Shown here in pieces: positions 16,089-43,536 of a stretch of 64,000 nucleotides of DNA (positions within the stretch are counted from its first letter, which is position 1; each line of letters begins with the position of its first letter). Location of the stretch: NCBI GenBank assembly GCA_033065855.1, contig JAVXUO010001488.1, positions 744,001-808,000 of the forward strand. Reading direction: 5' to 3'. Made by a program: the position numbers and the translations under genes. The stretch is from Escallonia rubra (lineage: Eukaryota; Streptophyta; Magnoliopsida; Escalloniales; Escalloniaceae). The notes beneath the pieces are model-generated. The model worked only from the letters and a program-made list of their open reading frames with translations. It was not told the DNA's origin and made no database searches.

Positions 16089-17090
16089 GTGTTAATAGAA
16101 AGTATTTTTTTTTTCATTTATTTTTTCTCTTATTTCCTCTTTAGTTTCTTTAGTGAATTACATGATATAGAGAAGATAAAGATGTCGATTCTCCACCTTC
16201 CCATTCCCCAGGAAGATGATTTTGGGGGTAGATATTTTGTAGATAAGAGTCTTCTTCCTGGTTCAACTTGTTAGTCTGCTGCTATTCCATACTTCTCATC
16301 TTTCTCTAGTTATCTTGGTCTACAGTATTGGCTACTACAAAATTGGTGGTTCTTCTCGTGGGAAGAGGGACTGCAACAACGTTGTGGTTTTAAGGTGCTT
16401 TTTCATTCAGTGAGCTGTTTATATGAAAAGCTCTGATGAAACCAAATTACTTAAGCTTTGCCACTGGGGAGGCACTTTTTGCCCAGTTGGTACACGTCAA
16501 TCGGCTCTCACTTGTCGGCGATTAATATGACATGGTAGGATCTCTCTATCTATTCAGAATAATGGCTCGTATGTTTTGAATGTGTTTGGATAGGAATTGG
16601 ATATTGAAAAGGAGTACATAAGGAGTGTGTGAAGGCCGGGAGCTGCACCAAGAGAGGCTTGCTATACTAAGTTTTTGTAGCAGTGTGCTGCAGGGCACAC
16701 CGTGCCGTGACTATTGAGTTTGCCGGGTGTTGATGTTTGGTGTATTTCTTTGTTAACAAAAGTCATAGCATCGTGCTCGGAGAATCTGATTTAATATACT
16801 CCAATGTGTTCGAAGTTAATTAAATCTAGAATCCTCTTTTTCTTGAATTCTGATTTAATCAGTTTTGAAGAATCAAGTTTAACCTAAACAATTATCAAAA
16901 TATCATCACGTATAAAGAGACACACATGCATCCATTTGAATCTGGATATATTATATGGTCATTTTGCCATACTAAACCTACACCTTCAACAACTTTTACT
17001 TTGTTATGCTCAAAATAGATTAAAGCTGAAATTTAAGAACTGATTATGATTTAATCAAAATTTACTTTTGAAAATCAATCGCAAACAACT
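16089..17090. other. 3' flank of the pseudokinase gene
   Basis: T-rich 3' UTR-like sequence followed by AT-rich intergenic DNA. No gene is seen. Confidence 0.4.
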
Positions 17091-17094
17091 TCTA

Positions 17095-18343
17095 ATACTT
17101 TCTCTGTCGTCTAGGTTTTGCTTCCACCATCTGTCGGGGAAACCATAGTCGGTTTTCCCGGTGGGTGGTGGTTTTGTAATCATGTATAGGTGTGTGGCGC
17201 TCGGTCCTGGCTTAACCGAGGCTTTTGGTGCCTTTGAGCCCTTGGGAGGTTATGCTTGGCGTTGAGACCAGGGGTTGGGCTTCGGTTATCCTCCATCTCT
17301 CTGCGTTTAAGTAAGGCGTCAGAGTTGCAAGTGGTCTATGGTGGTTAAGATCTGGGTCCTCGACTCTTATATGGGTTTGGGTGTTGAGATTTGGTTGGCA
17401 TCCCCTCGTCTGATGGTGGTTTGGTTTGTGGCGGTTCATGGTGGTTGGGCACAGGGTGTGTAGTCTTATGGTGGTACATAGTGGTAGGTGGTAGACCAGG
17501 TGGCCGAGGAAGGTTTTCTTTATTGCTAGGGTTCGTTCCTCATTCTGTTCTCGTCCTTCCCCAGTAATGTTCCCTTCCTTATCTCTCATTTTAGGTTTGT
17601 TATGGGTTTCTAGGAACGGTTAGGGGGTCCTTATGTGTAGCCCGTGAGGGGAGTTGTGTTGGTTGGATTTGGTGACTCTTGGGGTGGGTGGCAATAATTC
17701 AAGATGAGGTTTATGTGGTGGAGATTGGCTACGAGGGTGGTCGGCGGTTGGTCTGGTGTTTGTTGGTGTCTAGCAATGGGGTTGGTTCGGTTGATGGTGG
17801 CACGGTGGCCGACTGTAGTTTGGCGATGGGTGGTGGTGATGTGCATGGTAACGAGTGAGCAAGGCGCTTCTTGGGGCACATGGTTTAGTGTGGATAGCTG
17901 TGTTTGTTGTTGCCATCGGTTGTTGCTGTGTGGTACGCATATTGACTTGGTTATGTTTCTTTTTATGTTTTTTGGCATTATCTTTCGAAGTACGTTGTTG
18001 ACATTATTTTGACTTGTCATGTGCTTTCTTCATGTATTTTTGTGTCATGTTATCTCCGTGACAGGGTATATGGCTAGTGTCTTCGCTAGTGTAAGGCCAC
18101 ATTAATCCTTTATGCAGGTAGTCATCGGTAGAGATGTCTTAACATTAAAGCCGATATTTTTTTTTGCTGCTCAGTTATACAAGGAGGTCTAGCAGTACTG
18201 CACTTTGTCTGCAGTTTCAGTGTTTAGAGTGCGATAATATGTATTTTTCTTTTTTTCATGTATTCTATCATGTTGTAGTACGTGTTTAGTAATGATACAG
18301 TTAGTATGGTTTATGTCCAAGGCCAAAAAAAAAAAAAAAAAAA
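17095..18343 (+). mobile_element. Possible retroposon with poly(A) tail
   Basis: A G/T-rich body full of GGTGGTGG-like phrases (17100-17900) is followed by AT-rich 3' sequence and a 19-A tract at 18325-18343. This composition mirrors the retroposon at 9476-10931. No flanking duplication was found, so the 5' boundary is a guess. Open frames on both strands (102 and 129 codons) are low-complexity and not credible genes. Confidence 0.35.
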
Positions 18344-18438
18344 GGGTGGTAGTAACAAGTTGGATATTTGGGTTTTGATGTATGCAGCAAAGTAGGTCTA
18401 GATTAAGATAAGTACAATTTCCTCAATTTAGTTATGTA

Positions 18439-18588
18439 TGTTGAAAGATATAAACCCCACATTGAGTATCAATCTCACATCGGATAAATAATAAACAATA
18501 TTTCGATATATATGCCTTGTAGGCGTCTCCTCTCATAATCTCATTACTAATTAGATTTGAAGTTGATGTTTTTACATGGTATCAGAGT
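18439..18588 (+). mobile_element. LTR plus primer-binding site remnant
   Basis: A TG...CA-bounded segment of about 138 bp (18439-18576) is followed at once by TGGTATCAGAG, the primer-binding site complementary to initiator Met-tRNA used by Copia and TRIM elements. The very short LTR suggests a TRIM or similar small element. No second LTR was found in the window. It is a fossil fragment. Confidence 0.6.
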
Positions 18589-18599
18589 TAGTCGATTTA

Positions 18600-19790
18600 G
18601 GCTCAACAGACAATTCATAATTAGTTTCTCGCCGCCTTCCTTTACAATGCAATTCATAGTTCCTCGCCACCTTCCTTTACAATGTAATGTTGCTGATTGG
18701 ATTCTGGTTTTCTAGTTTTCAATTTCCGAGAAATCTACAAACAAGCCCGAGTAAGGAAGTTTTTCAGCTCTGGTTTGTCAAAAGTATACTCTTTCGAGCA
18801 ATTGGGATGCAATCGTGGAAGACTTATGAAACCTTTGTCTGGTCTCTGAACTTCGTCAGGCCAATCAATGCATAAGAAGGAAACTTCTGCCATTGAGGGA
18901 GTATTTGCCAACGATGATGGGTCACGTATGAAACACCATCCTTGTTAAGTCAGCAAAGCCGTGTTGAAAGTCTTCATATCTAGGAACCCAACATTTCCCA
19001 TTTCAATTTTGTAAAGCAATCTATCCAAGCCTATTCAATCAATTTACCTACACGACAATTTTTTTTTTTTTGAGGTTCGTTACTCACAGTTTTTGTTTTC
19101 TGGGGTGTCAAATTTAAGGATTTCATTCAAATAAAGAGTGACTTATAATAACAACAGAATATAACTTCGCACAATATCCGAAATTCTCTAAAGTGGTTGC
19201 AGCACATAATCTCACATATCTCGCGCTGGCTATACCGGAAGAACAAAAATAATCAGACTGCGAATCGTGTAACAAGCTACCCTTACCCCACTAATTCTAA
19301 ATTTCAACCAACATAAGCCTAAGACGCGATCCACAATGCTTAAACCTCGCACATACCGTCATTGCAAGAACCAAGGTTGCAAATAAAGTTCATAAAAACC
19401 CAGAGGAATGGCTCTAGTTTTAAGTAGCGTACGCCAATATGCCTAGCATTGAGGGTTGGAGTGTGTCGAGCAACCTCTAAATAGCCTAACGGAACTTTTA
19501 ATCGCCTGTCAACAGTTCCGTTATTATATGAACCCAACTTTATTAGATCCAACATTTTTTTTTAAATACTTCTCAAATGGAGTAGTTTGTAATATGAAAT
19601 CTCAATCTCAAATAGTTTGTAATATGAAATCTCAATAAAAAAGACAACTTTGTCTCCATTGGTCATGCAAACAACAAAGCAAAAGAGAGTGCTTCTTCCA
19701 TTGATGCAAGAATGCATTGATTTGTGATACCAACTTGTAAGAAAGTGACCCTCGAAAAGAGTAAACACTATTTGATTTTTGAGAAACGGT
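18600..19790. other. Intergenic, repeat debris
   Basis: No gene is seen. A T12 run near 19059, followed by sequence resembling the reverse complement of a retroposon 3' end, hints at an old minus-strand insertion. A 25-bp phrase (TAGTTTGTAATATGAAATCT and flank) is repeated in tandem near 19580-19636. Confidence 0.35.
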
Positions 19791-19796
19791 TTATTG

Positions 19797-20878
19797 TTCT
19801 TTATCTCCCAAAACAGCCCTAAGCCAGCCGATTCCGCCACCGCACGGACCTCCGCCCACCGTATTAACTCGCTTCTTATTCCGCCATTCATCCCCATCTT
19901 GAGTTTTCATCGGCCAGTTACCCTCAACAAACATTCTATTGGTATGTTGATCCATCACCATTCCTTCAGTATCCTCAATTGTGCTATCCTTGATTTCCCT
20001 AATTGTCTGATTTCCAAGACTTGGCACCAATGCTAACGACTTTGTCTTTTTTTGGTAGGTCAGTTTTTTGAGTTCTTGATTGTTTGTTAATTGTGCTTGA
20101 ACCTGGTTTTACTCGACTGAAACTACGTGCCTCGCATAGGGATGATTTTATACCACAGTCCGTTTCCAAATACTAGCCCCATTTTAGTTCATAGCAAGTC
20201 AAATAAAGCCGATGCTTCTACGTTCACAATGTGTTCTAGGAACATGCAAAGAAGCGAAATGGGGCAGAAATTATGGAACGGAGGAGGGAGACTGCAATTT
20301 GCGATCAATTGATCGAAATTATTAGCATATCCCATGTAGTGATTACTGAAGAATGTGTGTTTGCTTTAACTGTGGAATTAGGGGTTTTGCAAAATTATCT
20401 GCTTTTTTTTTTGGGAGGCTTTTTGTGAGATCATTTCTTTTTTGTCAATTTAATTTGTGCTTCGCAGAGGTGTTGAAGGGTTTTTTCAAGTATAGGCTAG
20501 TATCCACTAATTTTTAGCTTCTATGTATTGTTTTTATCCTGAACTTCATCAAACATCGAGAAAGGCTATTGTTTGTTTGAAAGAGTTTATTTTGATTGTC
20601 TGTTTTTCATGTCCAGGGTAAGCAGAGATATCTGCATATCCTTTCCCTCTAGTCTGGTACAAAGGGGTTTAGCTGCATTGGACCTGGATCAAGCTACAAT
20701 TAAAGGTGCTGTTTATCTAAGAATTTTGTTTCGTTGGTCTGTTTCCCCGCTGGGTAAAGTTGGTTTAGATGATGTTGCATTAGGGGTATAGAGCAAGCAA
20801 TCTTTTAGCCTGGTTGTGTTTTTGGGTAGATAATCTTTCATTCGTCAGGATAAGTTTGGTGCTGTACGCACATCAGGA
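19797..20878 (+). promoter_or_regulatory. Putative leader region of the ZIP transporter gene
   Basis: A CG-richer island at 19810-19900 looks like an untranslated first exon. A donor-like TATTG|GTATGTT near 19941, and an acceptor-like TTCGTCAG near 20849 just ahead of the start codon, would form a 5'-UTR intron. This is inference from composition and splice-site form only. Confidence 0.35.
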
Positions 20879-23800
20879 ATGGAGTTGAGATTCAATCAGG
20901 TCTTGGTATTTTTGCTATTTATAGTAGCATTGAATGGCTATGCCACGGCAGAGGTGGAAACCGAAATATTACAAAAGATAAGAGCTCCAGTGAGGGATGC
21001 TGGAGGTAATGTTATTGATGGCACGGGTACAGAAGATGCTTCAAATTCTGATAGCATGGCTAATGGGCTGGGTGAAAGGTATCGTGGGAATAACAGAGTT
21101 TCGGTGTCCACGGTTGCATTGTTCACTCTTGCAATGGCTGCAGTTACTGGTTTGGGTGCAGTGCCTTTCTTCTTTGTGGAGATTGATCCGCAGTGGGCTG
21201 GGATATGCAATGGAGTGGCTGCAGGGGTGATGTTAGCAGCAAGCTTTGACCTCATACAGGAGGGACAAGACCATGGTGGTGGCAACTGGGTTGTGATTGG
21301 TATTTTGACAGGTGGATTATTCATATGGCTTTGTAAGAAGGTGATGACTTAAATTTCATTTTATTTCCCTTGTTAGTTTAACTTGGTGTCTTTACTAGTG
21401 CAATATCTAATCTTGTCTCACATTTTAATTGTTATTTGTTCCTGTCAAGCACTATGGCTTGTAGAGTAGATGATGACTTAGCAGTTCCCATGAACTTTGT
21501 CACTGTGGTCATACTCTCACATCATTAAGTTCTTAACTATGTTTAGGTGAATGTTGCCTCAACTTTATGGACACGTTACATAGCATGTACTTCTCAAATT
21601 CTGGTGTCACATTAGTTGAGAAGAAACCTTTGTTGTGCATAATGTTGTTACGTTGACAACAGATGACAACGTTCTAGTTGGCAGCAGCATAAAGATGAAA
21701 ACTATTTAAAGTTCTAACTTCAATAGTAAGTTAAGGCCTTATTGCCATGAAGTCATTTGCAGCTATTACTTATCTTACATCTGCTAGATGGATACCGATA
21801 AAAAGTTCTCTTGGAAAGTTAGAATGAAAGCCCTCCAACAAAGTGCCTTTGTAATTTTGCATGGAGTCAAATTCTTCCTCCCTTTCTGTAGGAAAGTATC
21901 ATGCCCCAATTGTGTCTTTGGACGTAAATGGGCAATAGTATTGTGTTATCATTGACGTAGTGATGTTGAGGTAATTGCATTTACCCCTATCAGCAAAATA
22001 GATACATTTTACCTTGAACAAAGACAAACCAGAATACAAATTTCACCCATCCAGAGTTTTCACTTTCTAAATTCTCTTGTAGACATACTATGCGACATCA
22101 TGTTGTAGCAACTAGTAACTGGCATATTGGAGTAGAGGAAATTAAATCGATGAATGACATAACAAGTATACGTGTCAAACTAAAAACTGTTCATTGGTGG
22201 CACCACATAAAGGTTCCACTCATGTTCAAAACTTTCTTTACCTACCTCTTGAGCTCTTGCTTTTACTTCTTGACACCCGTCAGATTCCAGCCTACATGTC
22301 CGCATACAATGCTACACTAGTTTGGACCTCTTTTACCTATTGGGATACCCTTATTGTTTTGGTTTTGAGCTGAATTTGACAATCTTGGCCCTTAATTAGC
22401 TTCTTCAGTCGAGCTTATGTTGTACATTAGCATTATATGATATCTCAATTACGTATTTGCTTCCTCACTTTATGAACATTACTAAACAATAGCTATTTTC
22501 TATCTTAAGCTAGATTAAGGATCCTTTTCTTTCAGAATTTAGTGAAGGACTGAAATTTTCCTTGAATAGTAGTGAGTTAACCTTTCTCTCCCTATATTTT
22601 CTCTCATCACCCTTGAAGTCACGTCTCTACATGCAAACGCAATTTCAACACAGGTGTCCCTCACATGCCCTTGTTTCAAGGAAAGCCGTTTTTCTAGTCT
22701 CTAGCAAGAATGCACATAGTCTACGACTCTACGTTGATCAAAACAATGCATGTTCTCTTATATTCTTCGACACTCCTATTCCTGAAAAATGAGATTATTA
22801 GCTGTCCCTCATTTCCATGTCAGTGAGGCAGTTACCTTTTCAATCAAGATAGCCGATCCCTAGGTTGTTTTTTAGCCTATGATTGGTTGCAGGTTGTTAT
22901 ATCTTGTCTTTTTTCTGATGTTCAGTTCCTTGAGCAATATGGCGAGGTGAGTATGTTGGACATAAAAGGAGCAGATGCAACTAAAGTCATACTTGTTGTT
23001 GGAATCATGACCCTTCATTCTTTTGGGGAAGGCTCTGGTGTGGGAGTATCATTTGCTGGCTCTAAAGGTCTTTATCAGGGCATTCTGATAACTTTAGCTA
23101 TCGCAGTGCACAATATACCGGAGGGTTTAGCCGTGAGTATAGTTCTTGCGTCAAGGGGGGTTTCTCCGCAGAATGCAATGTTATGGAGTGTAATCACATC
23201 ATTGCCCCAGGTAATACAGTTCCATAGATTACTAGTTTCTCTTATTGTATAAGAATGTTTATTCCATTTGATCTCATGGAGCTGACTATTCTTTGCATGA
23301 GTTTTTGAAACTTAAGGCAGTTAAGGTCGTTCTCCTTCTGGATTTACAGATAATTCTTCGTAAAATTCTTTGCATAATTATTGTCTAAGAATGTTTATTC
23401 CATTTGATCTCATGGAGCTAACTATTCTTTGCATAAGTTTTTGAAACTTAAGGCAGTTAAGGTCGTTCTCCTTCTGGATTTACAGATAATTCTTCGTAAT
23501 GTTTGCCACATGGCGCTCGGATAATAAGGTTTAACTTGATTGTTTGAACCAATTATTTAGCTATGCAAGACAATGGCAAGCACATGTTAGTTCAATTTAT
23601 GCAATCCTAATGAGAAACCTTTTAGGCGGAAGTGTCCTTTTTAAAACATAAAACTATCCGCTTTTTAGTTGATCTTTTCCGTTATTCATGTTGATGCAGC
23701 CTATTGTAGCAGTGCCTGCATTTATATGTGCGGATACCTTCAGCAAGTTTCTCCCCTTCTGTACGGGCTTTGCAGCTGGGTGTATGATCTGGATGGTCAT

Positions 23801-26800
23801 TGCAGAGGTTCTTCCAGATGGGTTCAAGGTAATGTGCTTCAATTCCTTTCTTTAGTCCTTAATATTGAACACTTCTTCACTGTATATTGTATGGAAGATT
23901 AAGAGCCAAAAAAAGAGAAAGAAATTAAACAAAATATGAAGACTGTGCTTCAGAATTAAGTTGACTAAGTTTTACTCTAATAGTTGCCGAATTAACTAAG
24001 TCAGCAAAAGGATTTTTACCTCTTTTTTGCCAATTGTAAAGAATAGCTTGTTTTTTCCCTTCAAAATATCTATTACTCTAATGTATCTCCACTTAACGGG
24101 AATTTTGTTTAAAGTTCAGTTGGTTTTGTCAGAAGGATCCTCTTAGTGAAACTAGAATGTTCGACTAAGGGGAAATTTTTCACAGATTCCAATTTATACA
24201 TGGTGCTATAAAGGTGTAGAGCAAGCGAAGGACAAATATGTCAATTCGGGGTATAGGTTTGGCATTTTTAAATAGTAATGCAATGGCACTATGGCAGCCA
24301 CATGGTTTGGATGTGGATTAATGCTGTAGAACAAGCAAGGACAAATATGTCATTTGCTAGAATAGTAACAGACATGACAGTGGATGGAGAGAGTGCTACT
24401 TTAAATCATAGGTAGATTGAACCCCGTTTACTTTCGGGGTTTGGGGTGGTAGAATGAACGATGAATGGCGAAAAGCAAGTAGATATTACAATGAATCAAG
24501 CTTGGAATGGGATAAACCGAATCTACCTCGAAATTGCTGATACCTTGGAAGTTGACTCATTAAAAGAATGTTTCATTGGGATGTGTTTTTGAACGTCTAG
24601 GGGATGCTTTCACTTCTGAGGTTTATTTTATACTGGATGAGATCTCTGCTTTCCTTCACCACCACCCCTGCTATCAGACCATAAGATGGAGATAAATTGG
24701 AAAAAGACCAAAGATATGATCTATTTGGTGGGGAGATTATGAACTGAGAAAAACATAAATACTGATCTTTTGAATTCCACCGGTCTGTTTTTTATATTTC
24801 AACTTTCTTGTGTTCATGCTCAAATTTCTTGATACTGAACTCTTGATTCTTTTGGCTTTTCGGATGCTATAGGAATCGTCTCCATCTCATGTTGCATCTG
24901 CAGCTACACTTTCGGTTGCGTTTATGGAAGCTCTAAGTGTCGTCTTCCAAAATCTCAGCCACAATTTCAAGTGAGTCCGTATATTTTATTTTGAGTAACT
25001 TGTAATATGGAACTACTAGGATGATATTTACAACTTTTGCTGTGAATTTTTGACGTGTGAATTCGTTCTCCTCGGTCGTGCCTCCAAACACTAGGGTTTC
25101 GAAGATGCTCTGAACTTTAGCACTTGCTAGCTGTCCGGATATAGTTTCCGTTAAAGTCAGAACGAAGGCATGGAGGACGGTGTTGCTTTTTCTATTTGTA
25201 CTTTTCAGTATTCTTTGTTGCATATCATGAAATTTATCTTAAACTCTGGCTCAAGGAGCTTGGGGACGCAATTGGAAAGACATATAGTTGACATTCTAAC
25301 AATAGCCATCTAACAATCCATCTTTGCCTGGTCATGAGAATTAGTGGGAAGGGAAAGCAAGAGATCAGTGTGAGTGCGAGCCAAGAAACTTGAGACCAGC
25401 TTAGTTTTATGTTTGATCACTTTGACCTCTCTGGGGCAACTTAGGATGCCATCCACCCCCCACCCTCTTCTGGTTTGGGACTAACTTCCCTCATTGGGAC
25501 CTGACAAGACGGAGATAATGGGGGAAGCAAAATGACTGTTATGCACCTTCAAATTACTGTAGTTTGAAAAATTCATAGAACAACGGTTCTCTCTCTCTCT
25601 CTCTCACACGCACGCACGCGCGTACGTGCACACACACACACACAGAGTACTGGCCACATAGGTAGCTAGCAATTTGTGCTCTCCTAAGAAGCACGGACTC
25701 GGGTGCGGGTGCGGATTCGCGGATACGGCATTTTTGAAAATTTTAAGATGCGGGTGCGTCGGGGATACGGCATATTTTATAAATATTTTTTTAATTATAT
25801 ATACTTAGTATTTAATTTTTAAACAATTTAAATCTTAATAATCATAATATATGTGTTTGATATATGTGAAACGACATTAATATTCCAACAAAAGCACAGA
25901 GTTTTTAAGTTAAACGAGTTCTTTCGTAAATTCTAAAGCTTTCAACCAAATTAGTTAAGTTTAATGGGTTGTTCTATAAATATTAAAATTGTAAAACTGA
26001 ACATAATAAAGCTTTTATGTGGTATCACTTCTATTTCTATGAAATGTTGGTTGATTTATGTAATAACTTAACATTGGGGTCCTTAAATAATATAACAAAA
26101 CTAATAATATGTAAATAATATAACATAACAAGTCAATCAGAAGAAGATAACTTCACATATCGACGGTCGACTCTCTGGAAGCAGGCGCACGGCGCTCGCC
26201 GTAGTGGGTCGCCGGGACTCGGCGCACGGGGACGACGCAGTGGGTCGCCGGTAAGTCCCCTCCTCCTCCTCCTTCTTCTTCTTCCTTCTTCTTCTTCTCC
26301 TTCTTCTTCTCTCCAGTGTCTCCTCTCAGATTTTCAGTAGTCGCCGGAGTCCCCGATGGTCGCCGAGGTTCCCGATGGTCGCCGGGGTTCCCGATGGTCG
26401 CCGGTGGTGACAGATCTGAGCCGATACGCACCCGATCCGCACCCGGGATTTAAGAAATTAAAAAAAAAAATGGTGGACACGCACCGGTGCCGCACCCGAG
26501 GCGCACCCGTACCCGACGCGTATCCGGTGCCGGTGCTTCACCCTAAGTGCCGCACCGGTGCATCATAGGTGCTCTGTCTTCTCTGTCTTATTTGGTTCCC
26601 TCTCTTTTCTCAAAGTGCAATTTTGAACACGTGTATGTAATATCTTTTGGGAAGCTTAGTGTAGGAACAGCAACTTAGGATAAGTTATTTAATTGTAAAA
26701 GTACAGGGAAGAGCAAGGATTTAGTCAAAGAATAGTCGAGTCATTGCATTCAATTGTTGATCTTCTTGCCTTCATGGCCCATAATTAGAGATGCCAAAGG

Positions 26801-30500: not shown

Positions 30501-33500
30501 CTAGGAGGAAGAATTTAGTGAAGGGTCAGTTTGACTTGGATCCGGCATGCAGAGCTCCTCATCACACCCCCTCTCCTGCTCTCGAAGTGCAGGAGCAAGA
30601 GAATGACCATCGTGAAGCCTACCCTCACTCTCTCCAGTGGCTTGAGGCAGTGCGTGTGATCCTGAACTTGCCTGTTGCTCAGAAATCAGGCTTGTAAGAC
30701 CATTCTGCTTCAGGTATGTCTCCAAAGGGAGGTTCGCTACTTGAAGAAGACCCATCATGCTCACACGGGTTGACATAATATTCAAGTCTTCCTCACGATG
30801 AGGATGGCTATTCAGATCCAGTTGTCCCTTAAACTGATTGTTGCTTTGACACTTGGATTGCGATTCACTTCCTGATTTGGCTTCATTCTCTAAAGGGTCC
30901 AGTTGTAATGTTCCTTGTCTAGAGATACTGTCCACTTCCGCTTCCTCCTTAGGACCCCACAAAAACTCATTCTTCTGGGCAATTTCTGCTTCGCGCTCTG
31001 ATTGACGCTTCTTCTTGCGCATCATTAAGGTTTTGAAACGGCGTTTAACTGTCATGCAGACATTGCAGGTGCAAGTAGGCTTGTGTTTGCCCTTGCCACT
31101 AGGTGGCTGGATGCATACAATGCAGGAGCAACCAGGCCTATGCCTTGGGTGTTTGGTAGTGGTCGCAACCAACGGTGTCTCTCCAATAACCGCACCACTG
31201 GGCTGAGCATCTAGGCTGGCAGATTCATGCTCCTGTGCTGGCCTGTTGCTTGCTGCGAGCCTCTGTTTTTTATAATCTATGCACAAAAAATAATAAAAGT
31301 TCAAGAATCTTGAAAGAAACCATGTGCGGTAAGGTACAAAGTTTCAGCAGGAAGTGACAAGCTTTAGAATGGAATTTGTGCCTGCTAGAAAAGTTCCCTT
31401 ACATGCACCACAACAAACACTTCAGGGGCAAAAATAGCTAGGACCCTCTTGAGCCACCCCCCCCCCCCCCTCCTCTCCCTCTCTTCCTGCCCGGGAGTGC
31501 GCATCCTGAACCATCATCAGGAAAAGAATGCAAGGGCAGCCCAATGCACAAGGCTCTGGCCACTGCAACGAGCACTCTCATGAAAATAGATTTGTTATAA
31601 TCATATTTACATTTTGGCCTGGTTATTGGGTTTTTGGGGTAAGTCCTGGTGACTTCCCCAGCTTGTGTCCACAGGAGTCCTGCCTACAATTTCATCTCGT
31701 AATAGCAACAAAAAGGAAGGGGGAGGGAGGAGGCAGGAGGGGGAGGAGAGAGAGAGATATTTAATAGACTCATATCACCCACTCCCCATATAGCAGATCA
31801 AGCCAGGAACCTAACAAATGTGCAATTTATCCTAAGGAGAGGTTATGTTAGATCCAACCCATCTCTTTATACCCTCACGTATAAAGACCGTCAACGAATA
31901 AACAAGACCACATTCTAAGACAACATCCCAGGCAACATCAGTGGGGTTAGATTTAACAGAGACAAACCAGAATCATACCCCTCATAAGTTTAAGAAGATT
32001 TTCAAGTTCCCTAGGGCTCAATTCGTCTGGTGCAGAACAGGAGCACCTGAGGATCACAAAAATGATACGAATAAGAGATACACACAATATATTGCATAAA
32101 TTTGTTCCTCGGATGGAGAAGTCATGGCTGACCTGCTTTGATCCCAAGCATTGGCCTGACATGTCCACTTAGAAGGGAGAAGAAAAGTAGGTGGTAATCT
32201 TCGCCACTTAGAGCAACTGTCGCATTGAGCCCACTGCTCTTGCTCCCTGTATGAAGTTATCAAGTGAACCACCAATTACATCAGATAAACAAACAGCATC
32301 TGAACTGAATATAGCACCATAATAATTGAACGTACTGAATTCCATAGCATTTGTTGTATACTTTGGCAGAAAAAAAAAAATCTAAGAAAATGATGCTATT
32401 GAAGGCTCCTACATCTTGAATATGATGTTTATGCTTAGACCTCACCATTTTATAACTATGGATTACCCAAAGCCTGTAAGATAAATAACTCAATTGTGAC
32501 CTACAGTTCCGATTGGAAGACAGCATCGTCCTTAGCATCCTCAGCACAAGGAACACCAAACGGAATTGCATTCTCATAGATCCGTGAAAGAAGTTTCTTA
32601 TAGGTTTCAATATTGCTCTAATGGGCCATAAGTCTTTCTCACGTGGGAAAAGTTTCCCTAAAAATTATTTAGTTAGGATCCTTTGTACGCAGAGCCGTCC
32701 CTGCATTCACAGTTGAAAAAACAGTACAATTTTCTGTAATAGGTTATAGACTCCTTACCCAGATAAGCGGACAGTGAAAATGCTCCTCTTCCCAAAGACA
32801 GGGGGTTCCTGTAAGAAAGAAAACAGGACTATTAGCAATAAGTCACGGTAAAACACCATTAGTATTGGGTGAGACTAGTCATACACCCGTTTTACTGTTT
32901 ACACAACCATTCAGATCTTATTTGTTCTAAAGCTAAAGCTCACTTTACATGCATTTCACAATGAATATACGTCCGTGGTGTTTAAATACTGAAAAATGTG
33001 TGTATATAGCTTCAACCCTAATGTAGCCCAAAAATGCCAACTAGAAGCCATGACTCAGTTGCAGGGATTTCCGTAAATTACTCGTACATTCCACTTTAGT
33101 TTTCCTAAAACTGCTAGTGGTCAGAACTCAGAAACTGGCTAAGAATGCTTATACACCAATTCACCAGCCAGTAAGACGATTAAATATTGCTTTGTCTAGA
33201 CTCAAAAATCTAAATAAGTTCTAAGGAAACAGGACCCAACTCTGCTTCCTACTGGGTTCAGCAACTTGATGTATCTGAAAATAGCATGTTACTTTTACAA
33301 AATAGATTACATTAACTTGCAGTATCTCTACGCATTTTCCATTTTTTTCATTCTACATTATCATTTGGGGGTTGGGGTCCGGGGGGGTGTTTGGGATGTG
33401 GGGGGGGGGGGGTGGGGGGGGTGGGTTGGTAAACACATTTGCACGGAATTGTTCAATACAAAGAATACGAAGCAATCAACAGAGAACTTGTATAAGGATG

Positions 33501-36500
33501 TAGATTTATTGTTCCTTTCATTGATCTTCATTAGCACTGAAATTTGATTCAGCAGACATCCAATGTTTCTATAGACATTAGAAAATGGAAATTAACGTAG
33601 GGCTTATTGAACAAAGCGTACACTTACTTCATATTCTTCAAATTCTTGGTCCTCAAGGGTGACAGTACTTGGCTTGACACTAGGAGGTGGGCGGAGCATA
33701 TCCTGTGCCTCTTCCCATGTAAGTTTTAGCTCCAGAGCATCTTGGCTATCAAAAAGCAACCTCTTACTTTTTGACCCAATGTTTCGACTTCTTTTCCTCT
33801 CTGGAACCAGAACATGTTGCGGCAATAAGCTATCTGCCTTGCCTCCACGGTTCTCAGAGAATTGCCAGCTGACATCGCCTCGAGTTGAAGTGAAATGCTT
33901 TGCGAGTGCATTCATATGGATATCTGTGCTACCTTTCAGCGACTGAAGAAGGCCAGAGTAACCATTATAGCTAGACTTTTAACACCATCCAAAAAGAAAT
34001 ATTCTCTTGAAAAATCACCCTCAAGTATGTCAGATATATGGGTATCCCTTTAGGTTGATATTTAAGATCTCAATACTACATTCACATTTGCTATCAATTT
34101 GAAGCTGGCTGCAAGTTATTATCCATGCGGTAGATTAAAAGCTCGCCAAATGAGAAGATGCAATTATTACAATACTCAGGCCATTCAGAAAAGTCCCAAA
34201 GTTAAAATTAACAGAGAGCTTCGCTACCTGTACAGTTAAAGTGTTTGATGCCTTTCGAAACCCCATAAGAAGTTTTCCTTCTGGCTCCATTCGGCTGAAT
34301 GTTACTGTAAAAATTTTATACATTGACTTCAGTTTCCCAAGTATAAGCAAGAATACGCTATACTATATGGGAAAAGGCAAGGACGGTTAGTTCATATTAA
34401 AAATAAGAGGACGTATTCTGGGGTGTTTATTGTGGTGCTTTCTTTACCCTGGAAAGGGGGGTATCTGACATCAGTTGGATAATTCGAAACATACAAATGA
34501 ATGCTACTTTCTTTTGAAGTGAAACTATTAGTAAGCTAGAACAGCAAGATACTTTCCCTGGACAAGATATATTAAGTAAATCCCCTTGGATGCTACTCGT
34601 TTATGTTTTACGCAAAAGGAAAGCAAGTTAGCTGCATCATATAACTATTTGCTATCTCTATGCCAAAAAAAGCGATTTACCTTCTGATTTTTGGGGGGAA
34701 AAATAGAAGTTATGGTCGGCTACAGAAGTCAAATTTACACTCTTGTCTCTTCCAATCCTTCTTATGACATAAAATCATATCTACCAATATTCTATTCATG
34801 ACCTACCAGTATTATACTCCTCCAAGGCAAAGCTCTTAGGCAGGACTCACCGGCTCAATAGTGAATCCTGCAAAGGGATGCAGTTGGGTGATGGTCAAAA
34901 GTAGAGATGGTGGTAGAGAAAGAAAGACGGTGGTACTGAAAATGGTGGATTTGGGTGAGTGGATGAAGGAGAGTGGAAAGAGAAAAGAAAAAAAGGGTGG
35001 ATTAGAGATAACGGGAGGCAGAGTGAGGAGAGAGAAAGAGCCATTACTAAAGGGACATATAAGGAGATACAAGTATATATTCTTTCCTGATTTGGAAAGT
35101 GATCAATTTTTTTGCGACAGCCCAAAAAGGAAAACTGATAAATCATTTTGGGACGGAGGTAGTATTAGGGAAGATTGGGAGGGAGAAAGAGGACATTATT
35201 GAAAAACATTTACTTATTAATGTTCTCGGACACCTCCAAACCAATTACAGTGAAGACAATGTCAATCATAACCATACGAAAGTAATACAATTGGCTATTT
35301 TACTGGCTATTTGAGCAAAGCAGGCTTCAAGTAAATAATTAAAAACTTAAGATACAAATAGAAGAACAAGTTCTAAGTAATACCAGTATCTCCAGCTTGT
35401 AATTGCATGGACTGTATGCAAGGGGTTACACCTTCTAAAACGTACATTCTGCTGTTATTATTAGGCCAAAATCTGAACTGAAACACCCACTCTTTGCCCT
35501 TAACATCTTGAATCCTCAGGGGTAGTCCCTCCGGTTGAGAGATAGGTGGAAAATATGCCTGCATGATGATTCTGTATTACTTATTACTCGTAAAACAAAT
35601 AAGTTGATCAACAAAACGCATTTCTACATGAACAGAAAAATAAATAATAAATAAGCACATGCCAGGGAACTTACTTCAGCACACGCTTTCGGGAGAACCA
35701 AACGACCTATTCGACCAGCATCACTGGCACTAAGAACCTTCTCAAACAATGGCACAATGGTCGAATTTGAGCTGATCATAACACAGTAAAGGAAATCACT
35801 GCCCCTTAAGCTAAAGGCACGATATTTCAGATTAGGAATCTAACCCAATACCATTTGGCTATGGGTGGAGAAGCATCGAGCTCATGTCCTAGTACGGGAG
35901 ACCTTTCTTACATGGGACAATCTCCTTTTCTTGCATGCAACCCGGGCTTGCACGTAGCCAGAGATGCATTGGCAGAAAAATCAGATGGTTAAAGATTGAC
36001 CCACAACCTCCTCAAAACATAGCTTTGATACCATATTAGGGCATCCCACTTACACCCCCATTGGCTTTGGGTGTCGGGTGGCCCATAAAGCTCATATGCT
36101 CGTTTGGGAGGAGCCACTTTTCTTATGTGGGACGAGCTCTTACATTTTACAAGTTACCAATTCTTGAAAAAGAAAATACAAACGAAAGAGATTAGCATGG
36201 ATACTCTCCAGATATTTGCTGCAACTCCTGATCTGTAATCCTGGGCCAGTATCTAGGAAGCAACTGATTCTTTACTTGTCCCTCCACAGGTGGCCTTGCA
36301 ACCCGTATCTGCGAAAGCGTGTTGGTATTTGAGTCCAACCCTACAGCAACAATGGACTTTGGGGCCTTTGGTAGATGGTGAGACGTAGACCCATGTTGAA
36401 AGGAAGTAATTGGTTTGCAATATTCTCTTTCTCCAACTGGACCAGGAAAAAAAGGTGAGTTTCCTGAAGGGGCAGCAAGTGAAATAGTCAAATTTGTCTG

Positions 36501-36812
36501 AACCAGTGATCCATACACATCTTTGACCCCCATATTGGTTTTATTTTTGTCTGATTTAACATCAGGGGGTGATCCAATATATACTTGTTTGAAGTTCAGT
36601 AAAGATGTGTTTCCAATTTCTCCTGTAGGAGGCAACACGTCTTCCTGTTTCATTTGACAGCTAGCTGACCCATCCGTATCATCATTCTGAGACGATGACA
36701 AGTGTTCATGACCATTATCATCAGAACTATCACCCAACTTCTTAAGTTTCATTCTGTCGAAGTTGCCTTCAGGTGTCCACGAAAGTGGGTCACGTTTCTC
36801 CAACACTAGTTC
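30501..36812 (-). CDS. VAL2: VAL2/HSL1-type B3-CW transcriptional repressor
   Basis: Nine minus-strand exons in consistent phase: 36812-36205, 35771-35675, 35558-35384, 34304-34228, 33942-33628, 32808-32759, 32246-32133, 32046-31979 and 31276-30501. Together they encode 759 residues. In order: a variable region ending in [19 protein letters not shown]; the B3 DNA-binding domain ([20 protein letters not shown] to the QAGDTVTFSR region); the PPVFGKR motif; a CW zinc finger ([14 protein letters not shown]...WTC...CSCS) that reads H3 lysine-4 methylation; a CxC-like Cys cluster ([20 protein letters not shown]); and an EAR motif (LDLNS). Family role: nuclear repressor that binds RY elements and recruits Polycomb to silence embryo and FLC-type genes. 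The true start is unresolved: the usual N-terminal zinc-finger exons are damaged, and the first Met in the 36812 exon lies at 36752. Confidence 0.9.
34810..35165. mobile_element. Possible Stowaway-like MITE in a VAL2 intron
   Basis: The right side ends CATTTTGGGACGGAGGTAGTA, the classic Stowaway terminal pattern, and the left begins near a TACTCCTCC at 34815. The inverted match beyond the terminal few bases is weak. The A/G-rich interior (34890-35040) has no gene. Confidence 0.4.
35835..36160 (-). mobile_element. TRIM-like short LTR element in a VAL2 intron
   Basis: Two diverged ~100-bp copies (about 35838-35925 and 36035-36150) both read, on the minus strand, GTCCCA..TAAGAAA...ATGAGCT...CCAAA/AGCC and end in CCTAAT. 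Between them, next to the upstream copy, is TGGTATCAAAGC (36033-36022), a tRNA-Met-type primer-binding site. Two tiny LTRs with a ~100-bp interior is the TRIM architecture. It is an old fossil, judging by divergence of the two ends. Confidence 0.65.
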
Positions 36813-36856
36813 CTATCGACATGCCAAAACATTGTGTCGCTTCTGGTGCCTGCATG

Positions 36857-36942
36857 AATGTTCAAAAGAAGCTAAATACAGGGATAAATCTGAAGCCTAC
36901 ATAAATGTTCAAAAGAAGCTAAATACAGGGATAAATCTGAAG
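36857..36942. repeat. 39-bp tandem repeat
   Basis: A 39-bp unit beginning AATGTTCAAAAGAAGCTAAA occurs at 36857-36895 and 36904-36942 with no visible differences, just upstream (in gene sense) of the first clear VAL2 exon. Confidence 0.9.
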
Positions 36943-37159
36943 GAAGATAAGATAAAATCCCACTATATTCCTTTAAAAAATCCAAGGCAAAATCTATTTA
37001 ATGCACCTTAAACAGGAAGCACTTATGAGAGTAGGAATTATTACTTAATCATCAGAGCCCATCTAATGAACGTTAAAGGGACTTCAATATGATGACTGAA
37101 CAACCCCACAAAAAGTTCTAGAAGGGTTCCCTATTAGTTTAGAAAGATGACCTAGAATC

Positions 37160-37439
37160 ATCATACAGGGTGGTATCAAGAAGTTATTGCAGCTAATACA
37201 GTTTACACCACCACTGTAAATAGCTGTAAGAAACGCATCCGCAATGGAGAAGCTGACAATACCAAAATCACTCATATATTTGGAGCACAGTATTTCAAGA
37301 GGGAAAGGCTTGGGGACATAGAGGAAGAAAATCTTGTTAACAATCAAGCCAACGCCTAACCTTGTGCTGATGTTCACGACTCCAACCAGTATCCTTTATG
37401 TGGAACAAGTCACAGAAGGCTAGTTTCTTATAGGCAATC
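37160..37439 (-). pseudogene. Eroded N-terminal zinc-finger exons of the VAL2-like gene
   Basis: Two adjacent minus-strand segments match the VAL-family Cys-rich N terminus. Exon 37439-37361 encodes AYKKLAFCDLFHIKDTGW, matching the family AYEQxxFCExFHxKExGW. A 108-bp GT-AG intron (37360-37253) follows, and 37252 onward reads LLHCGCVS, matching family RLHCGCIAS. Thereafter the frame changes: GGVNCISC, also family-conserved, appears in another frame. In the first exon the expected WRECNSC cysteines are replaced by WSREHQHK. The domain therefore seems to have been lost through small indels. The upstream exon carrying the WKKGWPLRSG-type finger was not found. Confidence 0.65.
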
Positions 37440-37559
37440 CTGGAGTCATTCCAAAGTTGACAAGCCATTTTAAAATCAACCTTGAGAACTTTAGCTGTCA
37501 AAACTAGGCTAACCCTCTTTGCTAACCGTCCACAAAAGTCATAAAAAGTAGATTATTAA

Positions 37560-38900
37560 GCTCAGAATGGAAGTTCTATTATCACGCGTAAAACAAAATT
37601 GGAACGATACGGGATATGTGCTGGCCATGTTTGTTGTGGGATAGAAGAATTGGTTGTTCTGTTCAAATTATTCCAAGGATTTCCTTTTTTTTTTAAGCTA
37701 CAGAAGTGTTTAGAAGACAGTCCAAAGAGACTAAATGTGGCCGAGAGATGCCCGTCAAATCTGCCGCCAACAAATCGACAAGCCATGAAGAAGGGGGGAG
37801 GTGAGAGCCTTGTACAAGCCAATGGCACAACCAGGAGGTTGGTTAGCAAGCCAATCAGCACAGTAATATCCTTGGGGTGGGAATGGATGATGTCTGCTAC
37901 AATCCACTCCTTGCATTTTTTGATAAGCTGGCATAAAGAGGATTCCCTGGATTTGCTTGATATGAGCTGGATGGAGGGCTTAGAGTCAGTATCGAGCATG
38001 AGTTTTCTGCATCCGATATCCCAAGCCACTTGCAGCTATGGTGAATCTCCCAGAGCGTTAGCTACAAAACCATCTGGGTCCCCTCAGGATACCACCTGCC
38101 CCTGCCATGCCAGAACTGCCTTGAATATGGGGGGATGGAGAGGCCTTCTTCAACCATGGCAAAAAACTCAGCCCAAGGCATGTTTTTACCTGAACTTTTA
38201 TGATCTTCTCGCAAGTTGCCACCCAGAAAATTTTGGCTCTACTGTGATAACCCAAAAAGACAGGTTCACCAAATCTTTATAGCTGTTGTATAGTCCCTAG
38301 ACACATAGAGGCAATCATCCCGACCATGGCCACAATCTCGCATTCTAGTTGGTTGTAAGCTGCCTAATGAACCTCGCTTCATTTGTTAAGATTCTTTTGT
38401 TTCTCCCTACCCGCATTAGCTTTGAGACATGTATTGAGGGTCCAAATTCTGCCGCACGCTTTGTCTTTGACAAGCGTCTTACCTTTGTAAATGATGCCAT
38501 AGGCCGATTTAGTTAAGAATATACCTTTGGCCGATGTTTGCCCAAATCACACAATCTTCCCCACGAATCAGAATATCATTTAAGAGGTGCTGTAAGTGCC
38601 TTGTGAGATCTGTCTGCAGCTTCGAATATTCCAATCTCCCTCACTGATGCAGCTTTCAACCTTGGCGGACATGTTTACATTACTAAGTCTAGCAATTCTG
38701 CTGTCAATGAGTGCTCCACCATCCACCCAGACATCTATCGAAAAGGATATCTTCAGCAGTTGGCTACCCTCCAAATCAATACTTCTGCCTTTGGCTATCC
38801 ACATCCATGTTGACGAGGTGCTAGGCTTAGGCAGATAAAGTTTAGTGCAATCTTTTGCCGGACACCTCCCTTGGAGGATTTTATTCCACAAACTGGTAGC
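37560..38900 (-). mobile_element. LINE fragment: zf-RVT and RNase H remnants
   Basis: The minus strand encodes, in order, a zf-RVT-like region (38891-38580; TWMWIAKGRSIDLEG... DVWVDGG), a linker, then RNase H-like pieces: GMAGAGGILRG near 38120, and AWDIGCRKLMLDTDSKPSIQL from 38025, followed by a degenerate HxREGN..AD region. These form the C-terminal part of a plant L1-type polyprotein in more than one frame. Reverse transcriptase and endonuclease are absent. It lies directly upstream of the eroded VAL2 zinc-finger exons. Confidence 0.75.
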
Positions 38901-41900
38901 TCAGAGCAGAGCCTCCAGCTCATTTTTGTTAAGTGGGCTTCATTCATCTGTCTTGACTTCTTGATGGTTTAATTTTGGTGATTTCACAACTTAGTTTATC
39001 GAAGTTATGACAAAGAGAACTAGCCAAGTTATGATAAATCGTTATTCCTGAATCAACATTGCAGCTGATACACATGCCAAGATTGCATCATGTTGTTCAA
39101 CGATTATAGTACACTGTAAGACAAAGTTCCACCTCATAACTTGAAACTATAGGCTTTCGCAAATTAAGAAGATCAATCTCAAATAACTGGCATGACAAAG
39201 GAGACACACAATTGGCATATAAGACTGTGATATTCATTAGTCTGCTTTTAGTATTATAAGAGTGGCTACAAATCGGGTCTAAGGAAACTTTGTAATATAA
39301 GACTCAATTCGCAGTTCTATGCTTTTGTCTCAAGCAACAGATACGACGTGTTATAGAGACTTTCTTGTCTCATCAAAACCAAGACACTCTTTTGTTGTAT
39401 GATCATGGCAAACTAGGGAACCGGTTTTAAAGGATGCACGCTTATCGTCCACAGTATGCCTCACAATAGCCTCCTTTCACGGAAGGATAGAGTTCGGCAC
39501 TACAACTATTGTGCCCATTTTTGAACTACGCCATTACTTACTAGGGAGCTTACATCTAATCTTTGAGATCTAATTAGGAGCTAAGACTCTTGTGTTAGCA
39601 ACAACCATTAACATGGCAGTACTTATTTCTGGATTTCTACTTAGTAGCAGTTGTTCATTTGATTCTTCAATAGCAATCATTGGCACCCTTCTTGTTCTGG
39701 AAGAAACAATAAAAAAAGGATACCCTATTCCTTTTGTTACTTAACTTTGACGGCGATTCTAGATCAACGCCCTCTTGCTGTTGAATACCATTGACGCAAA
39801 ATGACCAAAAAGGGGGTTCATGCAACTCTACCTATTTACAGAAGCAGGTTCTTTCTCCAATATCTAGCTGCAGTGGCGAAGCTATACTGGTTTGGTCGAG
39901 CTCAACAAAGCTAATAACTCAACCCAACTGAAATGGCGGTAATGAGAAAGCCCACAAACAAAAAACAGCAAGAAAGACCACCTGTGGCAGAAGATATCCT
40001 TGGAAAGGCTCATGGCAAACACCGAGCTCCAAAATTTTTGGTTAACCTTCCTGCATAGCGTTGCTATCTAACCATACCGAGTAACTTCCACCGGTTATGC
40101 TACACCACTTTTCTACTCATTTTGAGTTTTCAAATGTTAAGGAACTAGACTGACAGTTCAAAGCAGATTACGTCTCTCCCCAACGAAGTAATTCATATCT
40201 GTGAAGTTAGACTTACAACAAGTTTGTTTATCCTGCACATTATATACTTTCTAACTTGTACCCATCATCACCTAAGCCTTGTCCGAAACTAGACTGGTTA
40301 GCTACATCAATCCTATGAAACACGGACACCTCTTATGGGTCGAAAAATCATGTTTCACACTTGCCGACACCTCTAGACACATGCCAGACACCTTTGGGAG
40401 GTGCCTGAATCTTTTTCATTTTACATAATTATCGAACAACGTGTCAGACACTCCTTGAACAAGTATTGGACACTTCCTGAAAAGTGTTGGACATGTATGA
40501 AGCTGAAATGTGATATTTAAAAGAGTCGGGATATAACATTAGGGAAAGGTGGTGGTTTTTTAGGATCAAAACTTGGCAAAACTAAAATATTGACTAGATT
40601 GTATATCCCTTCCTTTGTTGACATCCGATGTTGCAATGCTTGCTAAACCAAGAGGGAGACGACGACAAAGGAGACAGAGGATCGTCGCTGGCTTCAAGCC
40701 GGGAGTAGCGCTTCTTTTTCTTTCTTTCTCTTTTTCGTTCTAATGGAGTATTGCTATTGATACTTATTTCTTTTTCTTGTTATTTCTTTCCTGATATTTC
40801 TTTTCTCTCCCTATCCTTTCTTTTGTGACTAAAAAGAAAGAAAACAACTTTTGTAGTTTGCGGCAACTCTCCTTCCTTCACTTTTGAAACTAATTTTGAA
40901 ATTTGCTTCTTACTTGATTTCGAAATGGATTCAAGCGAGGCTAGCAGTGTGCTAAGTTCCGCAAGGGCACATAACCAAGGTAAACCTTTGTGAAGATTTG
41001 TGACAAGGTGTAGCAGTGGTTGCATAAGGTGGAGGAATCTTGACTTCAAAGTGCAAGTTTAGAGGTGGAATGTGATAGAAGCGTAGTGAACACAAAGATA
41101 AGAAAACAATAAAAAAATTCGATGGTGTCCCATGGTCTTCAAAATTTGGTGTTTTGGAAATTGCAGTGTCTGTTAATCCGTCAATGTCAATGTCTAATGT
41201 GGTGTTTATACCGGTACTCCCTAAAGCATAAATCTTTTTCTTTTCATAAATTCCTAACAATAAAGTCTTCTAGCACTACTTCTCTCCATGTTATCCCCTT
41301 TGTAACTTGTACTCTTGAAATGATATGTGATGGTTTGTTTTCAAACAATAACACGACGAATGGGGAAATGATACCTTAACTAAGTCAAACTTACTCACCA
41401 CATCTCAAAATGCTGGTGAAAATCAAACACGTTCAAATTATATATAGATAGCCATCATAGATGTGTATTTATGTAACAATAAATGCACATGTGAGTTTTG
41501 TTGCAGGGAAAAAATACTCCTCTCGTGCCAAATGATGGAACAACTGACTTTGACCACTACCAAAAGCCTATGTTACATGAACTCGGTACGAGTGTCTGAG
41601 TCAGATACGTGTCCAAGTGTCTGATTCGTCCATTTTTCTAAACCCAAGACACAAGGACACGACAACATATTCCTATCTATTCTTGTATTTTACGATTTCC
41701 TTAGTTTACATGGTGTTTTAAGTTACACATGTCGTTTTAATTTAAAGTGAGAACATCTTAAAGCGATAACAAACTAGTAGAAACACTATAATATAGTGTT
41801 CTTAGTAGCATATCCTATGGGATGTGTCGGACACATATCCCATACCCATGTCCAAGTGTCAAGTGTCTGATACGGGTACTTCACGCAATTTGAAGAGTCC

Positions 41901-42680
41901 ATATAACATAGCCAAAAGCCATCTTCATGTGTTGTCATCACTATTAGTGACTATAATTATAATGGGAGGATGGGGCTTAATCCACACCCCTCTAATAATC
42001 AAGATGCCAGAATTTTAGCTTTAGCAACATATAGTGTTTAAAGGTTGTAGGTGTTGATTTAGTAACGAGACCGAGCTAGCAACATTTATTATGCACCTTA
42101 CCTTACTTCTCTTCTGTAAAGAGATGAAAGTGCTGACATTGAACATGAAGGTTAAGTGTCATCAGTGGGGTTTCCGCAAACACGTAGATCCTATCAGTGT
42201 ATGGTACAAAACAAGAAACACTTTTACATCCAAAATAATGAAAAAGAACAAGGCCACCGTGAAAAGCCAGAAAAACCTCATGTAAAGCTCTAAACATAGA
42301 ACATTTCCTATCCGAACAAGACAGCAGGTTACATTTGAAAGTTCCGAAGCAATTTAAGGGATCTATAGACCTATGCCCAAGCGATTCCCAGTGTCAAATT
42401 TGCGAACTTCAGACAATTGTAATCCAATATCTTTTTTCAGAACAAAAGCCCTAGCACTTAATACTGCAATTACACTGAAATAAACATTCAATTGAACTCA
42501 AGATGGTATTACAGATCAAATAAGTAAACAAGGGGAAAACTAAAAAACCCACGAGCGAAGTCAATAGTAAAAGTTCGAATTCAAATCTAGAAATTCACAA
42601 CTGTCAAGAATTATGAAACGGAGGGAAGTTCTACGTCACAAGTACATCAATCAGTCAAACTAGGGTCAAAAATAGTGTTT
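38901..42680. other. Large intron or intergenic region upstream of VAL2
   Basis: If the exon at 42.7 kb belongs to the VAL2-like gene, this is intron. I searched it on the minus strand for the missing family exon (MN..CG...WKKGWP) and found nothing. It is AT-rich and repeat-laden. Confidence 0.4.
40316..41890. mobile_element. Degenerate hAT-like fragments
   Basis: Clusters of GACACxTxxxACAC and GTGTCxGA phrases occur at 40316-40510 and, partly inverted, at 41585-41640 and 41815-41885 (CCAAGTGTC, AGTGTCTGATACGGG). Such subterminal repeat clusters mark plant hAT elements. Clean termini and a target duplication were not found, so at least two overlapping remnants are likely. Confidence 0.4.
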
Positions 42681-42681
42681 A

Positions 42682-42805
42682 CCTTTCACTGGTCAAAGTT
42701 TTGAATACCGATCCTCGGTACGGAGCTGGAGTGTTCGTTTCCCGGTGAGCGGGAATACGATCGCCGGCGATGAGAGGAGAGGCAAATGTATAAAGTGCAT
42801 GCACG
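42682..42805 (-). promoter_or_regulatory. Putative promoter, RY element and untranslated exon of the VAL2-like gene
   Basis: On the minus strand: the palindrome GTGCATGCAC (42804-42795) holding the RY core CATGCA, then TTTATACA (TATA-like, 42793-42786), a GC-richer leader, and a donor GTGAAAG|GTAAAC at 42681. Nothing in the leader starts translation, so this would be a non-coding first exon. Assignment to the VAL2-like gene rests on orientation and position only. Confidence 0.5.
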
Positions 42806-43536
42806 ATGCTTCAAGGTTCCGCAAAAGTCTTCCACCTAACCTCTTTCCCCCACTTACGTTACCAAATTTCGAATTCAAAAACTAATTTATTAATTAGGAA
42901 TAAATTAATTTAAACGAAAAACTAAATAATTAGAGATAGGTTAAGGCAAAAACTAGTTTATTACGATGCAATTGAAAATTTTCATTAGCGTGCCTTCAAA
43001 AGAATTGAAATTTAAATCGACATTGGTGTGATATGATAAAAATAAGTAACGTCCGTTGTTTGCTAAAACGACAAAATTATCAATAATAACTTCATCCAAA
43101 CTATATACACATTAAAGAAATTAAAGTCAACAATGAAACAGAGAGAGGAAAAAAAAAATAAAACGCACACAAGCCAAACAGATATACCAAGGCAATAGTT
43201 TTTTATTTTGGTTTGAACGCTAAAAAAATATTTTTAAATCAGTTTTAAAGTCAATCGAGATTAAGATATTAGTTCAATTTGGGGCGAGGAAGAACCAAAA
43301 TACTCGGAGGCCTGTGAATATTTGGATTTTAAAGCTGTTTAGCTCAATCCAGTTTATCTGCTCCATTGGTACGGGCCTTGGACCGGCCCAGTCCAAGGCC
43401 CGTTGTACCATTTCGCTTCCTGGGTTGTACCTTGGGTTGAAGCCCTGCAAGTATAATTGCACCCCCTTATCCCCAATTAGTCCCTTCATTCTTCATTTCT
43501 TCTTCACTCTGCTGCACAAAGCAAATAAGAAGAGCC
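42806..43536. promoter_or_regulatory. Intergenic region between putative VAL2 promoter and EF-P
   Basis: About 730 bp separate the minus-strand TATA-like box from the EF-P start codon. The EF-P-proximal 150 bp are less AT-rich and carry GGCCCA/GGCCCG motifs at 43384-43403 (inverted pair GGGCC...GGCCC), common in promoters of plant translation-machinery genes. Confidence 0.45.

Follow-up and report, generated by a model that had tools for sequence, protein, structure and literature searches.

Organization of the VAL-type gene

The stretch of DNA analyzed here, referred to as the window, covers 64 kb (C1345:744001-808000) of a genome that comprises 566 Mb in 3222 contigs. The window contains on its minus strand a VAL-type gene with the following exons:

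36205..36752, minus strand: coding part of E4, beginning with the first in-frame ATG (MKLKKLGD...) past a TAG; linker preceding the B3 domain
35675..35771, minus strand: E5, start of the B3 DNA-binding domain
35384..35558, minus strand: E6, core of the B3 domain
34228..34304, minus strand: E7, end of the B3 domain
33628..33942, minus strand: E8, conserved block
32759..32808, minus strand: E9, EPPVFGKR block
32133..32246, minus strand: E10, CW-type zinc finger
31979..32046, minus strand: E11, end of the CW region
30501..31276, minus strand: E12, cysteine-rich HPRHRPGC block, EAR motif DLNSHP and stop codon

The nine exons specify a frame of 739 residues that runs from the ATG at 36752 to the TAG at 30503-30501. 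A preliminary description of this DNA had termed them intact and in phase, and this was borne out by a coding sequence of 2220 nt with a single terminal stop, zero inner stops and eight introns that all have GT-AG borders, placed by hand from homology. The hallmarks of a processed or silent pseudogene, namely lost introns or disabling lesions spread over the coding region, were absent, the introns being retained and the 2220 nt from the ATG at 36752 being free of lesions.

VAL proteins recruit Polycomb silencing to seed and flowering genes. The family features searched for in the deduced protein were all present, namely a B3 domain of the VAL type (aa 192-291; PF02362, 59.3 bits), a zf-CW domain located C-terminal to it (aa 425-467; PF07496, 41.8 bits), both with scores above the Pfam cut-off, the HPRHRPGC block at aa 524 and an EAR motif of the DLNxxP type (DLNSHP, aa 635-640). 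The best matches in the PDB were the B3 structures of VAL1 (6j9a, 5yzy and 6fas). The four-domain VAL1/VAL2 type additionally includes an N-terminal PHD-L finger (PF25813), of which only broken remnants were found at 37439-37167. Comparison with Arabidopsis VAL2 and VAL1 yielded 641 and 558 bits, respectively. The bit scores favour VAL2, but a six-row tree of the conserved blocks contained no strongly supported fork, and the nearest row to the window protein was the C2593 gene of the same genome (266/332 identical). The gene is therefore labelled VAL2-like.

Remnants of the N-terminal finger

The PHD-L finger, which is partly covered by the Pfam family zf_VAL1_N and whose structure is available for Arabidopsis VAL2 (5z28) and VAL1 (5yug and 5yuh), is encoded in the sibling genes by exon 1, exon 2 (to xxCGK) and exon 3 (HCGC...GGVxCxxC). 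The region preceding the intact frame of the window gene contains the following features:

36753..36849, minus strand: broken 5' part of E4 (first 97 nt), with stops in both relevant frames
36848..36942, minus strand: 47-bp tandem duplication, two copies with 95% matches, spanning the 3' splice site of E4
37167..37252, minus strand: remnant of VAL exon 3 (second half of the finger), frame shifted; a stop follows in the HCGC frame
37361..37439, minus strand: remnant of VAL exon 2 (first half of the finger), open frame, donor AAG/GT retained
37901..38062, minus strand: degenerate LINE RNase-H-like fragment (RVT_3, E 6.6e-6); coordinates approximate, computed from the match

The minus-strand landmarks AYKKLAFCDLFHIKDTGW, LLHCGC and GGVNCISC, which had been taken as traces of the cysteine-rich N terminus, were all found at the positions originally given. 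The assertion that they fall in different frames applied to GGVNCISC relative to LLHCGC, which belong to the same exon and are separated by a gap of 34 nt between the cysteines of HCGC and GGVxC versus an expected gap of 48 nt, i.e. 14 nt too short; it did not apply to AYKKLAFCDLFHIKDTGW and LLHCGC, which share a frame. As the latter two motifs reside in separate exons of the sibling genes, their relative frame is uninformative. The claimed loss of several zinc-ligand cysteines was evident in the exon-2 remnant, which lacks both cysteines of the RECxxC pair, reads REHQH in this stretch and is shorter by a net one codon. AG and GT dinucleotides are present at the expected borders of both remnants, and the open frame of the exon-2 remnant includes an ATG at 37468. 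According to a hand alignment, 7 of the 11 family-invariant residues survive in exon 2 and 8 of 10 in exon 3. A Pfam search with the remnant peptides yielded a single PF25813 match (12.9 bits, E 0.11; cut-off 27), the remaining peptides giving none.

Downstream of the remnants, the first 97 nt of E4 are interrupted in both candidate frames, the TAG at 36815 closing that of the main ORF and a TGA at 36792 closing the alternative one; two short upstream ATGs are also present there. The 47-bp duplication doubles the 3' splice site of E4, and its length is not divisible by three. The LINE fragment that had been noted upstream of the gene is real; it carries inner stops and is located approximately 0.5-0.6 kb upstream of the exon-2 remnant. 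Neither the region 37600-39000 nor the region 41900-43000, the latter a possible location of the first exon, had other copies in the genome at E 1e-5.

A frameshift-tolerant family profile, for which five VAL sequences from outside the window were used (three in the case of exon 1), was applied to both strands of the 64 kb, with 30 two-base-block shuffles serving as background. The exon-2 remnant scored 56.0 (shuffles 31.6 +/- 2.4, maximum 37.6) and the exon-3 remnant 58.0 (shuffles 30.5 +/- 2.7, maximum 38.4). Both are the top places for their exon on either strand, about 10 SD above the shuffles, and lie in the proper order adjoining the gene; these scores exclude chance matches as the source of the finger peptides. 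The next-best places for exon 2 scored 41.0 at 32207, within the CW exon, and 40.6 at 24396 on the plus strand and hence exceed the shuffle maximum, so that the shuffles understate the background somewhat. Exon 1 attained a best score of 35.0 on both strands of the window versus 35.1 +/- 3.7 in the shuffles.

A plain HMM built from five rows likewise ranked the remnants as the top matches of the window for exons 2 and 3, with 19.7 bits for exon 2. When single genes were left out, the exon of the omitted gene was recovered in 9 of 9 cases, exon 1 at 28-50 bits, and the exon-3 remnant was the best match in all three runs. The same runs detected no exon 1 anywhere in the window; an exon 1 hidden further upstream within the window was discarded on the basis of both the HMM and the frameshift-tolerant scan, which agrees with the preliminary statement that the first family exon could not be found. 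A plus-strand peptide at 24373-24399 also resembles the end of VAL exon 2, reaching 18.9 bits with the five-row HMM versus 19.7 for the remnant; two of the three leave-one-out runs placed it ahead of the remnant, by 0.7 and 0.2 bits, and the third placed it behind. It is probably a chance likeness, considering its score of 40.6 versus 56.0 in the frameshift-tolerant scan.

VAL-type genes and gene copies elsewhere in the genome

A genome-wide search with PF25813 (E up to 10) resulted in ten matches, none of which was located on contig C1345. Six of them represent exons 2 and 3 of VAL-type genes on C2593, C1971 and C922, and the other four are weak (E 1.3-5.2) and distributed over other contigs. 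The N-terminal 105 residues of VAL2 retrieved eight matches, which account for the nine finger exons of these genes with the exception of exon 1 of the C1971 gene; the search (exon-1 sensitivity 2/3) is therefore not fully sensitive. The three genes retain the finger and each has B3 exons of its own. Since every finger exon set found is situated in such a gene, no spare intact finger was detected, and the intact finger on C922 was rejected as the missing front of the window gene because it is part of a gene with its own B3 exons. An intact N-terminal exon set for the window gene was thus searched for in the whole genome and not found.

The region 37100-37520 matched nothing but itself in the genome at E values of up to 1, and the E4 region gave only short matches of 70 bases (81-84%) and 116 bases (78%) in the siblings and in gene copies on C441. 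A second intact copy of the window gene, the search for which had been suggested as a check, was not found in whole-genome searches with the finger and E4 regions. The C441 sequences (13001-23000, L049; 57001-65000, L050) are two 5'-truncated copies of the C1971 gene with DNA that is about 95% identical; both begin past the finger exons and carry a stop and frameshifts.

Several further observations were made during these searches. The VAL-type gene at C922:35236-46953 (L032-L034) has finger and B3 exons that look intact, and no convincing CW or C-terminal block was found in about 13 kb downstream of it, an architecture that is the mirror image of that of the window gene. A related piece comprising CW and C-terminal sequences is present on C478 (L030). 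The genome-wide B3 search furthermore returned dozens of near-equal matches in open frames of 87-91 residues; two of the loci (L051:608-1763 and L052:560-1715) share a block of 1156 bp with 97.5% identity inside stretches of 2.5 kb. This shared block looks like a dispersed repeat that carries a B3 gene fragment.

Evidence bearing on possible selection on the B3-CW-EAR part

Four lines of evidence, none of them decisive alone, bear on whether selection still maintains the B3-CW-EAR part. The first is the polarity of disabling lesions, of which there are none in the 2220 nt following the ATG at 36752 versus two or three in the approximately 261 nt preceding it. Even placement of the lesions would give this distribution with a post hoc P of 0.011 (two lesions) or 0.0012 (three lesions), values that are optimistic because the boundary was picked after the lesions had been seen.

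The second line is provided by relative rates, for which changes unique to the window gene were counted against those unique to the C2593 gene in the conserved blocks only, with the variable linkers left out. The resulting ratios were 23:23 with Arabidopsis VAL1 as outgroup (330 sites), 20:32 with Arabidopsis VAL2 (330 sites), 18:19 with C1971 (314 sites) and 3:7 with C922 (142 sites). None of the four comparisons was significant (smallest p 0.13), and the conserved blocks evolve as slowly in the window gene as in the finger-bearing C2593 gene. Third, the same gene pair differs by a dN of 0.30 and a dS of 1.76 over 633 alignable codons, the synonymous sites being near or at saturation in parts; the lowest dN, 0.105, was determined for the B3 segment.

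The fourth line is a comparison with the dead copies on C441, whose coding sequences diverge from C1971 by 1.6-1.9%. Seven exon pieces were compared. The first copy contains three 1-nt indels and a stop, i.e. four lesions in 1569 nt with 25 substitutions, and the second contains one 1-nt indel and the same stop in 1348 nt with 26 substitutions and has also lost the stretch holding the CW exon; the lesions of this control may include assembly errors, and they are not independent, given that the copies have the stop and a 6-nt insertion in common.

The loss of the finger from a gene with an intact B3-CW-EAR part is well supported by these data. The explanation that we favour and consider probable is that of a VAL2-like gene in which the N-terminal PHD-L finger has decayed and selection still maintains the B3-CW-EAR part. 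A gene that is just beginning to die, silent after the loss of its promoter and exon 1 and hit by chance only in its 5' part, is a rather improbable alternative. It would account for the undetectable exon 1 and the LINE fragment upstream, and the function could be taken over by the three further VAL-type genes. It also gains from the survival of most invariant finger residues, according to which the decay may be young: as the estimates of selection average over the entire lifetime of the paralogues, an intact remainder proves little if the finger decayed very recently. Such a gene is, however, difficult to reconcile with nine exons and 2220 nt devoid of stops, frameshifts and lost splice sites, with relative rates equal to those of the C2593 gene and with the several exons hit in the C441 copies at their low divergence.

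A second alternative is a longer protein, the new N terminus of which would be derived from unrecognized exons or from the exon-2 remnant spliced to an inner E4 acceptor located after the TAG at 36815. This is quite unlikely, as an unconventional acceptor would be required, both relevant frames running into a stop after the usual one, even though 20 codons of the E4 frame lie open from the TAG to the ATG at 36752, the open exon-2 remnant with its ATG at 37468 ends in a fitting phase, and the genome-wide search for exon 1 overlooked that of C1971. A longer product would still be devoid of a functional finger, given the missing RECxxC pair and the undetectable exon 1. An artefact of assembly or haplotype, with an intact finger in the true or other allele, is very improbable: the data rest on one assembly, but the window holds no N, the finger region lacks a second match in the genome, the lesions are of several kinds with no homopolymer slips among them, and all finger exon sets found belong to other VAL-type genes.

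Predicted product of the finger-less gene

If the finger has decayed and the B3-CW-EAR part is maintained, as favoured here, the window gene may reasonably be expected to yield a finger-less protein. Transcripts would enter the gene upstream of or within E4, and translation would start at the ATG at 36752. The product would keep the RY-binding B3 domain together with CW and EAR, the parts that make contact with histone-deacetylase partners and trigger PRC2 marking in Arabidopsis. It would lack the finger, which in the same species serves in the pairing of VAL1 with VAL2 and in the proposed reading of H3K27 methylation. For the CW domain, SIN3-like proteins (VAL1) and HDA19 (VAL2) are described as partners (PMC9266683), and the binding of VIN3 was mapped to the linker and CW of VAL1 (PMC7615239). 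The EAR domain is reported to be able to trigger PRC2 marking, and PHD-L is named a dimerization domain with reference to earlier work (PMC8408475). The PHD of VAL1 is said to bind H3K27me2/3 (PMC9266683), and the hsi2-4 point mutation in the finger is reported to result in less H3K27me3 at transgenes and AGL15 (PMC4232687).

The designation as a finger-less repressor in the preliminary description is the weakest part of that interpretation and must be viewed as uncertain. In HSI2mPHD, a VAL1 protein with eight changed finger residues, pairing with itself or with VAL2 was reported to be abolished; the protein showed no enrichment at DOG1, and DOG1 expression was about two-fold over that of the null mutant, for which the authors use the term dominant-negative (PMC7383879). 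According to the same report, CW and EAR are dispensable for the repression of DOG1, and EAR is cited as required at AGL15. Given that HSI2mPHD remains undimerized and off DOG1 with DOG1 levels above the null, a finger-less VAL may interfere rather than repress, and as the finger-dead VAL1 fails to accumulate at DOG1, such a protein may hardly bind its targets. The product of the window gene might repress weakly as a monomer, scarcely arrive at its targets or compete with the complete VAL1-like protein specified by C2593. Expected would be a VAL unable to dimerize that has a modulating effect on this VAL1-like protein and possibly acts as its competitor. The further-reaching proposal that the B3-CW-EAR half has been selected as a monomeric competitor tuning the complete VAL1-like protein, and thus as a natural dominant-negative VAL, is tentative and on the whole doubtful. 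If it were true, the protein might act, for example, at dormancy or flowering genes.

The decay of the finger is well documented at the sequence level and the resulting protein is putative. The loss of the finger only, with its fossil exons alongside, represents a natural experiment in which DNA binding and co-repressor contact are separated from pairing and reading. Should the protein be produced, it would provide a test of whether a VAL protein can work as a monomer or brakes its sibling.

Comparison with known VAL proteins

Literature searches limited to open-licence articles in PMC gave no title or abstract on a VAL gene that combines fossil finger exons with an adjoining intact B3-CW-EAR frame, and the available portion of the rice GD1 paper (PMC3813988) contains nothing on finger loss. 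B3 and zf-CW are treated as essential VAL features (PMC6599366), and loss of the CW domain was proposed for two tobacco genes (PMC6409620). Finger-less VAL proteins as such have a reported precedent in AsLAV5 of Aquilaria sinensis, which resembles the window gene in combining B3 and zf-CW with the reported absence of the whole PHD-L; in contrast to the window gene, it stems from an annotated gene set, and the available part of the report mentions neither remnant exons nor a test of constraint (PMC10653465). The PHD-L of Arabidopsis VAL3/HSL2 is stated to be incomplete as well (PMC10653465), but this protein belongs to another VAL clade and is likened to the window gene by description.

Arabidopsis VAL2/HSL1 contains the B3 domain, the mid block, CW, the HPRHRxGC block and EAR in the same order as the window gene and differs from it by a complete PHD-L (5z28) in place of broken remnants. 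The window gene also resembles HSI2mPHD and hsi2-4 of VAL1/HSI2, which combine a dead finger with intact B3, CW and EAR parts. Among the residues changed in HSI2mPHD, it lacks the equivalents of C39 and C42 (exon 1) as well as C65 and C68 (exon 2), whereas those of H73, C76, C93 and C96 are readable, in two different frames. HSI2mPHD and hsi2-4 are laboratory mutants in which the finger is altered yet present; a natural dominant-negative VAL, if true, would be the evolved counterpart of the engineered HSI2mPHD.
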